Shown here in pieces: positions 3,029 to 9,368 of a DNA stretch of 64,000 nucleotides (position 1 is its first letter; each line of letters opens with the position of its first letter). The notes under the pieces are model-generated. The model was not told where the DNA came from. It saw nothing but the letters and a program-made list of their open reading frames with translations, and did no database searches. Source of the DNA: Luteolibacter sp. Y139 (GTDB taxonomy: Bacteria > Verrucomicrobiota > Verrucomicrobiia > Verrucomicrobiales > Akkermansiaceae); the NCBI RefSeq assembly GCF_038066715.1, contig NZ_JBBUKT010000007.1:1-64000 (forward strand), given 5' to 3'. The position numbers and the translations under genes are program-made.

Positions 3029-3184
3029 ATGTTAGGAACCATATTGCTTATTATTCTCTTATTAATGCTCGTCGGAGCGCTGCCAACCTGGGGTCACAGC
3101 AAGTCGTGGGGATATGCGCCGAGCGGGGGGCTTGGACTGGTCCTTGTGATTGTGATCGTGCTTGTGCTGATGCGGATCATTTGA
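3029..3184 (+). CDS. DUF3309 family small membrane protein, 51 aa
   Basis: A 51-residue peptide from ATG 3029 to TGA 3184. It has one N-terminal and one C-terminal hydrophobic helix around a conserved centre with W-x-HS-x-SWGY-x-PSGGLGL, the signature of DUF3309. These peptides are widespread in soil and freshwater bacteria, often near stress genes such as CsbD, GlsB and DUF1328, and their biochemical role is unknown. It is too short for common ORF cut-offs and is easily missed. Family assignment rests on the recognised core motif and length. Confidence 0.88.
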   Translation: MLGTILLIILLLMLVGALPTWGHSKSWGYAPSGGLGLVLVIVIVLVLMRII

Positions 3185-3287
3185 GCACCGACAAGAAGCG
3201 TGTTTTTGCCGATTTTCCCCCTGACTTGTCCTCGCGAGGACTGCTCTAGGTCTTGTGGAGAATGCCGGATCTGGTAGCAAACCTGCC

Positions 3288-4463
3288 ATGCATTCGGCAT
3301 TGGCGAGCCTCGGGATTCTTTTCGATACCTCCGACTTCCCCGCGCGTTGGCATTGCGGTCATTGGACCCCGGTGCATGGCTGGTTTCATATTATCTCGGA
3401 CTTGGCGATTGCGGCCGCCTATTCGGTCATTCCGGTGGCGCTTGCAGGCTACTGGTGGCTGAAGCGGAGCGAACTCGCTTTCCCCCGCCTGTTCTGGTTG
3501 TTTGCGGCTTTCATTTTCAGTTGTGGAAGCACGCACGTGATTGAGGCGGTGATCTTCTATCATCCCATTTATCGGATTTCCGCGGTGATGAAGGTGATCA
3601 CCGCGATTGCTTCATGGGCGACAGTGATCGCGCTTTTGCGAATCGCGCCGCAGGCGATCCATCTTCCAGGTCTGCAGCGGGCGAACGCACGCTTGGAAGA
3701 ACAGCTCCAAAGGACCCGCTCGGCGGAGTTGGCGCTGGAGCGAAGCAACCGTGATCTGCAGGCCTTTACGGGATTGGTGACGCATGACCTGAGGAATCCG
3801 CTGACGAGTGCGTTATTCGCCACCGAACTCGCACGTGAGGCTGCCAACAAGGGGATGTATCCCGCTCTAACAGGTCAGCTTGCCCAAGCAGTCCAATCGC
3901 TGCGGCAGATGGAGGCGCTGATCCGAGAGCTGCATGGCGATGCTTTGCTCCGAAGCAATACCGGAGAAATGAAGAACGTGATGCTAGATGACGTCGTGAC
4001 CTCGGCTCGCCTGAATCTGGCCCCCCTCATCGCCGACCGTGAGGCGAACATTGAGGTGAAAGCCCTCCCACAGATCCAAGGAAGCTACACGATGCTGGTG
4101 CAGCTGTTCATCAATCTCTTCGAGAATGCCATCAAGTATGCCGGCGACACGGTGCCGAACATCCTCGTCGAAGAATTAGAGAGGAAAAATGGACATGTCG
4201 TGGTTCGTGTGTCCGACCAAGGGGTGGGGGTGCCACCGCATGCCTTGGAGGCCATCTTCGAATCCGGCGTCCGTGGGGATAATGCCCACCATTTGCCGGG
4301 GAGTGGTCTGGGTCTGGCATTTGCTCGACGGATCATGCAAGCTCACGACGGAACCATCTCGGCACTCTCCGTTTCGGAGGGAGCAGCGTTCGAATTGAAA
4401 TTCCCTTCGTTCCCCTCGGAAAGTTCTGTCTCTCCGGACTCCATCCAAAACACGGGAGCCTGA
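3288..4463 (+). CDS. Histidine kinase with ethylene-receptor-like membrane sensor domain
   Basis: 391 aa from ATG 3288; a GTG at 3255 would add 11 residues. Residues 33-120 form three hydrophobic helices that match the ethylene-binding domain of plant ETR1 and Synechocystis SynEtr1/UirS. The residues I recall as essential for ethylene or Cu(I) binding in ETR1 (D25, Y32, I35, P36, I62, C65, H69) correspond here to D38, Y45, I48, P49, I76, C79 and H83 with the same spacing. A helical linker (130-160) leads to a HisKA domain (THDLRNPLTS, His166). The ATPase has an N box (FENAIKYA, Asn280), G1 (DQGVGV, 310) and G2 (GSGLGLA, 338). No receiver domain is present and no response regulator is adjacent. 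The kinase call is firm; the ligand is inferred. Confidence 0.88.
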   Translation: MHSALASLGILFDTSDFPARWHCGHWTPVHGWFHIISDLAIAAAYSVIPVALAGYWWLKRSELAFPRLFWLFAAFIFSCGSTHVIEAVIFYHPIYRISAVMKVITAIASWATVIALLRIAPQAIHLPGLQRANARLEEQLQRTRSAELALERSNRDLQAFTGLVTHDLRNPLTSALFATELAREAANKGMYPALTGQLAQAVQSLRQMEALIRELHGDALLRSNTGEMKNVMLDDVVTSARLNLAPLIADREANIEVKALPQIQGSYTMLVQLFINLFENAIKYAGDTVPNILVEELERKNGHVVVRVSDQGVGVPPHALEAIFESGVRGDNAHHLPGSGLGLAFARRIMQAHDGTISALSVSEGAAFELKFPSFPSESSVSPDSIQNTGA

Positions 4464-4482: not shown

Positions 4483-4746
4483 CTAGTGCATGGGAATCCA
4501 GTCGAATTTCGCGCAGTCTCCGACGCTACGATGAGAGACGTAGTGACCGAGAATAACCAACTCGAGCTCGTCTCCTTCCTTGAAGCTTTCCAAGTTATCC
4601 ATGGCGAGGAACATCGGCACCTTGCCGACGTCTTCAGCTTCCTCAGCGGTGACCATGGCGGGACACTCGCTGAGTTCGAGAATGCGACCGTCTTCCGGTC
4701 CGCCGACGAACTCGATCCGCGTAATGATGTTCTTTCGGATCTTCAT
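4483..4746 (-). CDS. Conserved hypothetical protein, 87 aa
   Basis: Runs from ATG 4746 to TAG 4483, convergent with the kinase at 3288 and only 19 bp from its stop. The product is acidic, with a beta-strand-rich start (IEFVGGPEDG) and a C-terminal segment ending FDWIPMH. There is no signal peptide or membrane helix. I do not recognise the family. A longer start at 4833 would add 29 residues of low quality. Confidence 0.5.
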   Translation of the reverse strand: MKIRKNIITRIEFVGGPEDGRILELSECPAMVTAEEAEDVGKVPMFLAMDNLESFKEGDELELVILGHYVSHRSVGDCAKFDWIPMH

Positions 4747-4928
4747 GGGAACCCGGGATGCAGCCACCGTGCCATCTGCTTGATCGAGGCCAATCCTGCG
4801 CTGAGGGAGCTGGTGGATTGCCTTGGATTCCAACGGAATACAGGGGCGTGAATGCCCGAGCTCGCGGAGCTAGAATGTCCCGATCCGGCGCGTCTGGCAT
4901 TCCGTTCCGGGCAACTTGCACGGGTTTC

Positions 4929-5519: not shown

Positions 5520-6212
5520 ATGAAAAACTGCTATCTGAATACCATGCCGCTTCGCCTTCGCCTTCCCGCCCTGTTGGCCTTCGCCTCGTCGCTTGCGTGC
5601 CTGCCCGCCCATGGGCAAGTGGACAACAATGCGATCTTCGTGGCTGCGGATATTGACGTGTCAGGCAGTCTGAGCTTGGGCGAGTTCACCACGACCCTGA
5701 AGACCGGTATCGGTGCGGCGGCCGCGCTGAAAAAGTTCCGTGCCGCGGACCGGAACCTAAACGGATCGGTCCAATTGAACGAGTTTCTCATCTTCACGGG
5801 AACCATCCCGGCGCCCAGCAAGGCGGAAACAGAGTTCGAGATCATCGACGACAACGCCAATGGGTCGGTGACCTTCGAGGAGTTCACCGACAACTCGAAG
5901 CCGAAGTTCTCGATCGTGAAGATTCGCAGGGATTTCTTGCGCGCTGATGCGAATGCGGACGGCTCGATAACCTTGGCAGAATATCTTTCGTTCAAGAGCG
6001 GGGCGTATGATCACACCCCGATTTCGATCTTCACTCTCGCCGACGTGAATGAGGACGATGAGATCGATCCGATCGAGTTCGGCTACTCCTATCCGCGAGG
6101 AACGTCTGAGGCGAAGATCATCGCGCGTTTTCAAGCCAAGGACCAGAACGACGATGGCGTGCTGACGCGTCTTGAATGGAATCCCGGTGTGCGCGGTCGG
6201 GTTTCGATGTAG
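5520..6212 (+). CDS. Secreted protein with six EF-hand calcium-binding loops
   Basis: 230 aa; ATG 5520 is used, and ATG 5544 (MPLRLRLP) would give a cleaner signal peptide. The signal ends near HGQ (about residue 32). Six DxDxDG-type loops follow: DIDVSGSLSLGEF, DRNLNGSVQLNEF, DDNANGSVTFEEF, DANADGSITLAEY, DVNEDDEIDPIEF and DQNDDGVLTRLEW. Most have acidic or Asn/Ser residues at positions 1, 3, 5 and the invariant Glu at 12, so they should bind Ca2+. The last ends in W rather than F or Y. It stands alone, 52 bp before a CBS protein gene. A calcium-dependent periplasmic or surface role is inferred. Confidence 0.85.
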   Translation: MKNCYLNTMPLRLRLPALLAFASSLACLPAHGQVDNNAIFVAADIDVSGSLSLGEFTTTLKTGIGAAAALKKFRAADRNLNGSVQLNEFLIFTGTIPAPSKAETEFEIIDDNANGSVTFEEFTDNSKPKFSIVKIRRDFLRADANADGSITLAEYLSFKSGAYDHTPISIFTLADVNEDDEIDPIEFGYSYPRGTSEAKIIARFQAKDQNDDGVLTRLEWNPGVRGRVSM

Positions 6213-6264
6213 GCTAAAGTGAATCATCATCCCGGACAAATGTCCTCCGGGGAAATCCAATCCA

Positions 6265-6687
6265 ATGAAAGTCTCAGAAATCATGAGCCGGGAACCGATT
6301 GTGGTCGCACCCGGAACCACCCTTGGTGAAACCGCGCAGCTGATGCGTGATCTCGATGTTGGCATGATTCCCGTCTGCGATGGCAACACGCTGCTGGGAA
6401 TGATCACTGATCGTGACATCGCCATCCGTGGAGTCGCTTCCCAACTCGATCCGGCATCCGGCGTCGAGGAAGTGATGACCAAGAATGTCCTCTATTGCTT
6501 TGAGGATGATCCGATCGAGAAGGCTGCCAAGCTGATGGAGGATGCGCAGGTCCGGCGCTTGGTGGTGCTCACTCGAGACAAGAGTCTGATCGGCATCCTC
6601 TCGCTTGGTGATCTCGCGACAAGGACCGAAGAGCGAGCGACCGTGGCAGAAGCGGTGAAGGCGATCTCGGAGCCGGCATTTCACTGA
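6265..6687 (+). CDS. Tandem CBS-domain protein
   Basis: 140 aa consisting of two CBS motifs only (about residues 1-62 and 70-132). Visible signatures are VSEIMSREPIVVAPGTTL, GMITDRDIAIRG, VEEVMTKNVLYC and IGILSLGDLA. Stand-alone CBS pairs bind adenine nucleotides (AMP, ATP, SAM) and act as energy sensors on partner proteins. The length is normal for the family. A strong terminator follows 42 bp after the stop, so the gene is probably monocistronic. Confidence 0.92.
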   Translation: MKVSEIMSREPIVVAPGTTLGETAQLMRDLDVGMIPVCDGNTLLGMITDRDIAIRGVASQLDPASGVEEVMTKNVLYCFEDDPIEKAAKLMEDAQVRRLVVLTRDKSLIGILSLGDLATRTEERATVAEAVKAISEPAFH

Positions 6688-7178: not shown

Positions 7179-8069
7179 CTAGCAGTGTCCCGGCTTGTCC
7201 TCGCCTGCCAGTATCTCGAGCGCGGTCATCACCTCCTCGGAGGGATCTCGCTTGTTGAAGAGCGCGTAGATTTCGAACTTGCGGCTCAAGGTTGCCAGCA
7301 CGTGGAAGCGCTTCCGATCACGCGATTCTTCGATCACCGAGCGGGGTAACACACCGGCTCCGATGTCAGCTGCGATCGCATCTCGGATCACGTAGACGTC
7401 GTCCGCCTCGGCCACCACGCGTGGTTCGATCCTTTGCTCCCGGAAGTATTGGTCGATCTCGAAGCGATACGCGCTGTGGCTGGTGTAGTGGATGAAACCG
7501 CGGCCATGCAGTCCCTCCACCGTGGGCTCCTTGAGGCTGGCCATGAACTTGCGACCGGCAGCGATCACGAATTCGGGGGAGCTGAGCTTGCGGCAGTCGG
7601 TGCCGCGTTCCTTTCGGCGGTGCGGCAGGCTGTCAGTGATCAGCAAGTCGAGACCGGTGGCGAGAAGCTCATGGAAGAGATACTCGTGATCGCCCTGTCG
7701 CACCCGGGTGAGAATCCGCTGGCTCTTGAAGAGCGTGATGAAGCGCTCCACGGCAAAGGAGCGCCCGACCGTGGTGGCGATGCCGACCTCCAGACGCGTC
7801 CGCGGTTCGGATTGGCGAGCGGGAAAGAGTTCCTCGAATCGAGCAGAGAGCCGGAACATCTCCTGAGTCACCTCGAAGGCCTTGCGGCCGTTCGAATTCA
7901 GGCGGAGGGCACCGCTAGCACGGTCGAAGAGCTTGTGGCCGAAATGCTCTTCAAGCTGCTTCAGCTGTCCGCTCAGGGTTGGCTGGGTGATGTTCAGCCG
8001 CTTGGCCGCGCGGGCCAGTGTGCCCTCCTGAGCCACCACGTGGAAATAGTGGAGATGGTTGAAGTTCAT
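7179..8069 (-). CDS. LysR-family regulator, NhaR-like
   Basis: 296 aa from ATG 8069. The N-terminal winged HTH (NHLHYFHVVAQEGTLARAAK, then TQPTLSGQLKQLEE) is closest to NhaR, the LysR-type activator of Na+/H+ antiporter genes, which also starts with an N-HL-YF motif. The substrate-binding domain follows (about 90-290). No nhaA antiporter gene lies next to it, so the target is unknown. An in-frame start 66 codons upstream would put unusual sequence ahead of the HTH and is rejected. The 349 bp upstream carry no gene. Confidence 0.88.
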   Translation of the reverse strand: MNFNHLHYFHVVAQEGTLARAAKRLNITQPTLSGQLKQLEEHFGHKLFDRASGALRLNSNGRKAFEVTQEMFRLSARFEELFPARQSEPRTRLEVGIATTVGRSFAVERFITLFKSQRILTRVRQGDHEYLFHELLATGLDLLITDSLPHRRKERGTDCRKLSSPEFVIAAGRKFMASLKEPTVEGLHGRGFIHYTSHSAYRFEIDQYFREQRIEPRVVAEADDVYVIRDAIAADIGAGVLPRSVIEESRDRKRFHVLATLSRKFEIYALFNKRDPSEEVMTALEILAGEDKPGHC

Positions 8070-8418
8070 GGGAGGTAGTCCCCTGTCCGGGACAAGACAG
8101 GATCTAACAAGAGGGAGGCGCCTGCAATCCGATTCTGGGGCATGGAAAGCCATCGGAAAAACCGAACGGGCCCTTCGGAAGGCTCTTGTTGCGAGCTTTT
8201 CGCCGAAGTGGCTATCCTCGCGGTCTCTCTTTTTTCCGCGCAGCCATCCGCCGCGCGACTTCAGCAATCCGGATCATGATCATTCCCCGCGTCTTGCTCA
8301 CCGCAACCTACGAGGTTTGTCGTTGCTTGCCGGAATGCGCCGTGTTTGCCGCTCCCCGGCCGCAGCCTGAATCCTCGGGCACTGCTGTTCCCTCCACCGG
8401 AAGACATAGCGGCCGTCC
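8070..8418. other. Intergenic stretch, no gene seen
   Basis: 349 bp between the divergent LysR gene and the phytochrome remnant. Open frames on both strands have no recognisable protein features. A TCTAACA heptamer lies at 8103. LysR autoregulatory sites would be expected next to 8069, but I cannot point to a convincing one. Intact bacteriophytochromes often follow a heme oxygenase gene; no trace of one is visible here. Confidence 0.6.
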
Positions 8419-9227
8419 ATGAGGGAGGAATTTTCTGAACAGGCCACCGGCATTCAGCCACACGGATTACTATTCGCGCTGCACGGGGACGATTTTCTGA
8501 TCGGCCAGGTGAGCGCGAACGTTGCCCGGGTGATTGGTCGGGATTCGCAGGAGCTTGTAGGCAAGCCCTTCCTTGATCTGGTGGAGCCCTCCACACGCGC
8601 TTCCGTGGAAGCGGCCCTGCGAGGCGGGTGGAGAGCAGATGGCGATTCCTTCCATGTGACCGTCCGCACCCAAGGGCAGGGCGGAGGGGTGATGTCGTTC
8701 GAGGGCATCGTCCACCTCTTGCCGGGCGGTATCAGGGTGGTGGAAATGGAGCGGGACCCGGTGCTCCACCAAGGTGGGGCCTCTCCCTCGCCGGGTTCCG
8801 ACTCCAGCCTCCGTCTCGTGAGTCGTTCGCTCGCTGCCGTGGCTGACCTCACGTGTCCAGATGAAATCGTCCGTGTGCTTGCCCGTGAGATCCAGCGCTT
8901 CACCGGCTTCCACCGGGTGATGGTGGAGCGGCTGGACGAGGACGACCGCGGCGAAATCGTGGCGGATGAGCATGTGGCCGGCATCGAGTCGTTCCTGGGC
9001 CTTCACTTGCGGGGTTCTTCGCTACCCGCGATCTCGCCCGAGCATTTTCCGGCGGGGCAGCATCGCCATTTTTACGATGCCGCGACATCGCCGGTAATGC
9101 TAGTGCCGCCGCTTTGTCCCCTGGGGTGGAGTCGGTGCCGGGGGAGGGGGCCACGTTCTACTTCTCGGTATCTGTCGCCGATGAGGTTCCCGGGCAGCCG
9201 GGTAGAGTTCCTCAAGGGGACTCGTAG
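8419..9227 (+). pseudogene. Remnant of a bacteriophytochrome histidine kinase (internal deletion)
   Basis: The first ~220 codons encode the start of a bacteriophytochrome. A PAS_2 domain begins with GIQPHGLLFAL, and a GAF domain begins with the typical TGFHRVMVERLDEDDRGEIVA but stops about 70 residues in, near a degenerate S-LP motif. About 30 codons later the homology moves to another frame: at 9135-9180 a different reading frame encodes VPGEGATFYFSVSV. This is the extreme C-terminus of a kinase ATPase domain, and it stops at TAG 9227. The rest of GAF, the PHY domain, the HisKA domain and most of the ATPase are gone. The original frame stays open to 9345 but reads as nonsense. The N-terminal Cys that binds biliverdin is also not visible. 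I call it a pseudogene. Confidence 0.8.
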
Positions 9228-9368
9228 ATCCCACACCTGCCGGGCAGTTGCATTTTTCCGATTCCGGCGGATCGGTAGCGGCGAGTGCGGAAACGCACGG
9301 GTGCCTGCGGTTCGGGGAGGGGCCGCGGGCACCACCATTTTCTGAGGGTATTAGTGTTGGTTGCTGAT

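Follow-up and report, generated by a model that had tools for sequence, protein, structure and literature searches.

The DNA analysed here, referred to as the window, comprises the first 64,000 nucleotides of contig NZ_JBBUKT010000007.1 of Luteolibacter sp. Y139. An open reading frame on its forward strand, running from an ATG at 3288 to a TGA that ends at 4463, encodes a histidine kinase of 391 amino acids, in agreement with the coordinates, strand and length given in an earlier interpretation made from the nucleotide letters (the sequence-only reading). An alternative GTG start at 3255 would give a longer frame; of nine proteins compared from the genus, that of the window among them, six have an ATG 29 codons ahead of the domain match. 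In a Pfam scan, residues 30-125 (3375..3662, forward strand) matched the ethylene-binding domain PF25487 (ETR1_N) over profile positions 2-96 of 97, with an E-value of 1.6e-29, which ruled out a chance match, and a score of 102.4 bits against a cut-off of 27; this was the ETR-type profile search by which the sequence-only reading had proposed that it be checked. The output part consists of a HisKA dimerisation domain (residues 158-215, 3759..3932, forward strand; E 3.5e-7) and a HATPase_c catalytic domain (residues 268-373, 4089..4406, forward strand; E 7.6e-19) with its N, G1 and G2 boxes, the latter overlapped by a weaker HATPase_c_2 match (E ≤ 0.001). All kinase motifs are there, namely HDLRNP at 166, whose histidine is the phospho-acceptor H166, NLFENA at 276, DQGVGVP at 310 and GSGLG at 338. 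GAF, PAS, phytochrome and receiver domains gave no match in the protein at E ≤ 0.001 in Pfam, a threshold at which the earlier statement that the kinase has no GAF or receiver holds. With NCBIfam, the best 25 of 77 families all fell on the kinase part and below their own cut-offs. Across the 7.1 Mb genome (97% complete) this was the single PF25487 match at E ≤ 0.001, and none was found in 14 control genomes. The host had been taken for a member of the Verrucomicrobia, as is supported by the placement of same-genus relatives in Verrucomicrobiales, Verrucomicrobiaceae by NCBI.

The predicted ethylene-binding site was examined by alignment with AzoEtr1 of Azospirillum brasilense and with what we take to be the sequence of plant ETR1. 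Helix 1 carries D38, Y45, I48 and P49 (3399..3434, forward strand), corresponding to D25, Y32, I35 and P36 of ETR1, and helix 2 carries I76, C79 and H83 (3513..3536, forward strand), corresponding to I62, C65 and H69, so that all seven residues named in the sequence-only reading are kept. Its claim of exact spacing stood for positions 25-32-35-36 of helix 1 and 62-65-69 of helix 2, whereas from one helix to the next the spacing differs by one residue, the step from 36 to 62 being 26 in ETR1 and that from 49 to 76 being 27 here. In ETR1 all seven are needed for ethylene binding. D25, C65, H69 and K91 are named as functional residues in the excerpt of PMC11819568 on which we draw, and C79 and H83 would, from the role given there, be the Cu(I) ligands. 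The same excerpt assigns an output role to the counterpart of K102 (3591..3593, forward strand; ETR1 K91), which lies in helix 3. Ahead of helix 1, C23 (3354..3356, forward strand) is invariant in 38 aligned sequences; one N-terminal cysteine of this type is noted for cyanobacterial receptors in the excerpted part of PMC6682694, and C23 is probably its counterpart.

Conservation of these positions was followed in relatives of the protein. Among 57 genomes, its own included, 18 had a match to the domain and 17 of these were above the Pfam cut-off; the seven residues and K91 are kept in all 17 proteins, that of the window among them. The eighteenth, G032 (22.9 bits, below threshold), keeps only Y32 and I35 of the seven and was rejected as a receptor, and the residue test is therefore able to discriminate. 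A wider alignment contained ETR1 and 98 further rows, three loci being entered twice under different names. The aspartate and the histidine were present in 98 rows each, the tyrosine and the proline in 97 each and I35 in 95. I62 and C65 were found in 98 of 98 rows, but these counts are circular for 80 of the loci, as the search pattern that retrieved them contained both residues. K91 was kept in 77 of the 98 rows; arginine replaces it in 18, and leucine or phenylalanine in three. By record title, 17 of the 18 arginine-bearing rows are from Bacteroidota, a phylum to which we take some of the genera concerned to belong. A replacement by R, L or F at the K102 position, with D and H retained, perhaps reflects a different coupling to output. 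The proposal of a candidate ethylene sensor is thus supported by the family assignment, by seven of seven residues plus K91, by their conservation in relatives and by 39.7% identity to the AzoEtr1 domain, and ethylene is strongly suggested, on these grounds of likeness, as the ligand of the window protein.

An AlphaFold model computed with 38 sequences (mean pLDDT 91.1, pTM 0.65) placed helices at residues 28-58, 66-88 and 95-124, block pLDDT being 92-98 as far as residue 120 and falling to 86 in residues 121-130. The best 19-residue hydropathy values of the three helices were 1.94, 1.72 and 1.98, compared with at most 1.13 beyond residue 130, and stretches of 19 residues reaching 1.6 or more were confined to these three helices, which are probably transmembrane. 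A further model helix (residues 127-187) takes in H166 and is followed by the catalytic domain. The intervening linker (residues 126-157, 3663..3758, forward strand) has no GAF or PAS match, and the earlier claim that a helical linker joins the sensor to the kinase was borne out by this helix and by the lack of any intervening domain match; as modelled, the sensor would couple to the kinase through a helix alone. When the model was compared with the PDB by Foldseek, the best 50 of 551 rows were kinase or kinase-regulator entries. A profile search of the PDB returned no solved relative of the sensor domain, the lone match being a synthetic protein at E 0.35.

Plant ETR1 and ERS1 share with the window protein the three-helix copper-type domain and its seven residues, and 33 of 92 aligned residues are identical to the ETR1 sequence assumed here. 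Plant receptors carry a GAF domain, and ETR1 also has a receiver. They differ further in having two N-terminal cysteines (PMC6682694, in excerpt) and in that a Ser/Thr kinase is the main recipient of their signal (PMC11819568, in excerpt). SynEtr1 (slr1212) of Synechocystis resembles the window protein, by its description in PMC6682694, in joining an ethylene-binding domain to a kinase in a bacterium, but in it a cyanobacteriochrome photosensor separates the two, and its downstream regulator is known. The window protein does not share the ETR1/SynEtr1 layout, in which a GAF or phytochrome domain separates the sensor from the kinase. The closest comparison is provided by AzoEtr1, the first 130 residues of which bind ethylene and of which the D35A and C75A mutants, predicted to be non-binding, have been used (PMC11819568). 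Its gene was recovered from plasmid record NZ_CP012915.1 as a frame of 525 amino acids whose start agrees with the paper's primer, and D35, C75, H79 and K98 fall at the numbering used in PMC11819568, which provides a check independent of the assumed ETR1 sequence. Both proteins are non-hybrid kinases, and their domains, 39.7% identical over 116 residues, have all eight positions in common. AzoEtr1 differs in possessing a PAS domain and, downstream, a receiver gene that overlaps its own, both of which the window protein lacks; a receiver gene overlapping the kinase gene or directly downstream of it, as in the AzoEtr1-type two-component pair, is not found for the window kinase.

The domain is not confined to these organisms. 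In a sample of Verrucomicrobiota, 24 of 387 genomes, the present one included, had a match, 23 of them above the cut-off. A scan of one genome per species gave at least 528 relatives, of which the best 80 belong, by title, to Verrucomicrobiales, planctomycetes, Bacteroidota, Hydrogenedentota, Acidobacteria, Sandaracinaceae, a gammaproteobacterium, a cyanobacterium and others. Proteins of this sort occur in many proteobacteria and cyanobacteria, where their outputs range "from simple to complex" (PMC7700396), and putative ethylene receptors occur in further phyla (PMC11819568); as the excerpts of these two papers already report bacterial receptors, the kind is a known one. Among titles and abstract openings, no paper on such receptors in Verrucomicrobiota, planctomycetes or Luteolibacter was found, although a two-component survey (PMC4558063) might mention them.

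Layouts were compared in 94 distinct loci, made up of the best 80 of the at least 528 relatives and the 17 proteins above the Pfam cut-off from the 57 genomes, minus three duplicates. By kinase and receiver profiles these comprise 52 non-hybrid kinases, 27 hybrids with a fused receiver and 15 proteins without a kinase call. A minimal layout, judged from length and kinase position (a Pfam scan was made for the window protein only), was initially assigned to 24 non-hybrid proteins shorter than 430 amino acids; G051, in which a truncated frame is succeeded by another that matches kinase and receiver, was dropped, leaving 23. Ten of these form the clade of the window protein, and the 13 others are G027, G045 and proteins from Verrucomicrobiia/Verrucomicrobiales, planctomycetes, Hydrogenedentota, Hymenobacter, Sandaracinaceae and three records titled only "bacterium". 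The minimal layout, which the sequence-only reading had singled out, is therefore not special, being present in 23 of 94 loci from several phyla. G027, G045 and L079 have the same domain order and a similar size but differ from the window clade in having a receiver gene that overlaps the kinase gene or directly adjoins it.

Other arrangements were seen among the relatives. Five loci (L048, L049, L053, L056 and L060, at about 5960-6610 in each) encode stand-alone ethylene-binding proteins of about 190-210 amino acids in which the kinase is absent and which have a coiled-coil-like end with a common tail resembling RExRVIELKxExxxLL. A frame with PAS, HisKA and HATPase_c domains (in L048 also CHASE) overlaps or abuts the 3' end of each of the five genes, and the products look like split receptors of planctomycetes and Verrucomicrobiales. 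Five further proteins of about 270-290 amino acids (L061, L070, L091, L101 and L102; four of the five Phycisphaerae-type by title) also have no kinase, and in L070, the single protein of these that was scanned, the C-terminal part matched no Pfam family. In a planctomycete record (L078:2942-4972) the domain is fused to PAS-GGDEF-EAL, a possible ethylene input to cyclic di-GMP.

Downstream of the kinase gene, the next frame (4483..4833, reverse strand) encodes 116 amino acids without a Pfam match and has homologs in G008 and G011 among 11 other loci; a frame of 115 amino acids, likewise downstream on the other strand, is also present in these two genomes. Pfam further identified an EF-hand gene at 5520, a CBS-pair gene at 6265 and a LysR regulator at 7179-8267 (reverse strand). 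A phytochrome remnant at 8419-9345 contains PAS_2 and part of GAF; residues 7-252 of a relative match it and the rest, including PHY, does not. G011 has a 606-residue frame with PHY at the corresponding place, and the one PHY match of the window genome lies at C6:349542. A link to light through this frame was rejected, the frame being a remnant without PHY. A 51-residue hydrophobic frame, which by eye resembles a DUF3309-type membrane peptide, lies close upstream of the kinase gene on the same strand (3029-3184). In the stretches compared, no neighbour was conserved beyond the window species, G008 and G011.

Given that no ethylene-linked gene was found among the Pfam-named neighbours and no ACC deaminase in the window genome at E ≤ 0.001, nothing local points to ethylene. 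This, together with the frequency of the domain in bacteria without an obvious link to plants (planctomycetes, Bacteroidota, Hydrogenedentota and marine genera, by title), would suit a protein that binds copper but reports on membrane copper or redox state, or on some other small gas or alkene, with ethylene binding being incidental. Every tested pocket residue is kept, however, and not the copper ligands alone, as in the Azospirillum and Synechocystis receptors, for which ethylene responses have been measured (PMC11819568 and PMC6682694, in excerpt), and this alternative is considered unlikely.

The opposite side of the locus is interrupted by the contig end. The window contig opens with an 18-base tandem repeat (positions 1-140), which codes for AKPERE on the reverse strand, and its start shares 95 identical bases of the same repeat with the end of contig C15. 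C15 also carries the PAS hybrid kinase and the small gene found ahead of the receptor in G008 and G011. The two contigs therefore probably adjoin in the genome, the assembly having probably broken at the repeat. The kinase might then belong with this PAS hybrid kinase (C15:163067-165097), passing phosphate to it or pairing with it: a PAS-kinase-receiver gene on the same strand ends 2.1 kb ahead of the kinase gene in G008 and 1.3 kb ahead of it in G011, and the window species has a counterpart, 78% identical, near the C15 end. The 95 shared bases are a tandem repeat, though, and a frame on the opposite strand separates the hybrid kinase from the kinase with the ethylene-binding domain. Furthermore, the counterpart is missing from the stretch compared in G002, G003, G009, G012 and G014, while G015 has only a more distant hybrid kinase, located downstream, and the contig of L036 ends too soon upstream for the comparison. 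Such a partnership is accordingly thought improbable.

Receiver genes directly downstream, defined as a same-strand frame starting within 300 bases of the kinase end, were sought for the 48 non-hybrid kinases whose downstream sequence extends over 700 bases or more, using a profile built from seven receivers, those of G027, G045 and AzoEtr1 included. A receiver was found in 25 of the 48 and not in 23. None of the ten members of the window clade (nine of the genus plus L036) had one, compared with 25 of 38 elsewhere, or 24 of 37 once G051 is set aside, the "receiver" there being the latter half of an interrupted hybrid kinase. As 13 of the 38 outside relatives also lack a direct receiver, its absence is not peculiar to the genus; three of the 13 (L094, L098 and L107) have one somewhat further down, and in another three of them (L084, L093 and G049) a receiver lies on the other strand or upstream. 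Two outgroups, G027 from the family of the window species and G045 from its order, have receiver genes of 151 and 145 amino acids, respectively, whose start codons overlap the kinase gene. The absence of a receiver beside the kinase throughout the clade is a feature on which the sequence-only reading had not remarked. For the window kinase, no receiver frame was detected within 2.5 kb on either side, and the nearest Pfam receiver domain on the contig lies at 15803, more than 11 kb away. The genome contains 85 receiver domains (Pfam), too large a number for one to be singled out as the partner. A search for the partner by resemblance to the G027 receiver was unsuccessful, as no close relative occurs in the window genome (best row 31% identical, with one shorter row at 38%).

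A tree built from 24 minimal proteins united the ten clade members in one branch (100/98), joined by L059 (98/94), which also has no downstream receiver, and the fewest changes of receiver state on this tree were three. A single loss of the receiver gene in the clade is the simplest reading, although the root of the tree is not fixed, and a gain of the receiver elsewhere may be the alternative. Since the clade has no receiver fused to the kinase or encoded directly downstream of it, phosphate would go in trans to a regulator encoded elsewhere, and the window kinase looks like an orphan ethylene receptor signalling in this way.

Loss of a partner might also mark a gene in decay and on its way out, as might be read from the missing downstream receiver in all ten clade members and from the absence of the gene from nine of 17 other genus members (two genomes less than 75% complete and seven 90-99% complete). 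Against this, the kinase motifs are all present, and the sensor and kinase parts of the gene each have a dN/dS far below 1. Compared with G008, Nei-Gojobori estimates were dN 0.059 and dS 1.36 for the domain and dN 0.168 and dS 1.76 for the kinase, giving dN/dS of about 0.04 and 0.10, respectively; only the G008 ratio is quoted, as synonymous change was saturated or undefined in most pairs and the second method, YN00, gave values for one pair. Compared with G011, dN was 0.079 for the domain and 0.222 for the kinase, and in all five pairs the domain value was about one third of that of the kinase. The sensor is the more constrained part, and decay is regarded as very improbable.

It is therefore considered likely that the product of the 3288-4463 gene is a homodimeric, membrane-bound histidine kinase which senses ethylene through a Cu(I) site and passes phosphate in trans to a regulator encoded elsewhere. 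Three membrane helices would hold Cu(I) between C79 and H83, with D38, Y45, I48, P49 and I76 shaping the pocket. Ethylene on the copper would move helix 3, where K102 lies, and the helical linker would then shift the balance of autophosphorylation and phosphatase activity at H166. By analogy with ETR1, SynEtr1 and AzoEtr1, ethylene would probably lower kinase output, and the phosphate would pass in trans to the separately encoded response regulator. More tentatively, and with less than even confidence, an ancestral ethylene pair in the Luteolibacter/Haloferula group may have lost its dedicated regulator once, the kinase now feeding a regulator shared with other kinases, so that ethylene would act as a modulating input to a general network and not through a private pathway.

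Such receptors are not rare and their kind is already known. The present analysis places a well-conserved, simple candidate ethylene receptor in Verrucomicrobiota, and finds its domain to be widespread in planctomycetes, Bacteroidota and others, beyond the cyanobacteria and proteobacteria covered in the excerpt of PMC7700396. With 391 residues and nothing between sensor and kinase, the protein would be convenient for studying how ethylene binding switches a kinase, and its missing regulator raises a testable question on orphan kinases.
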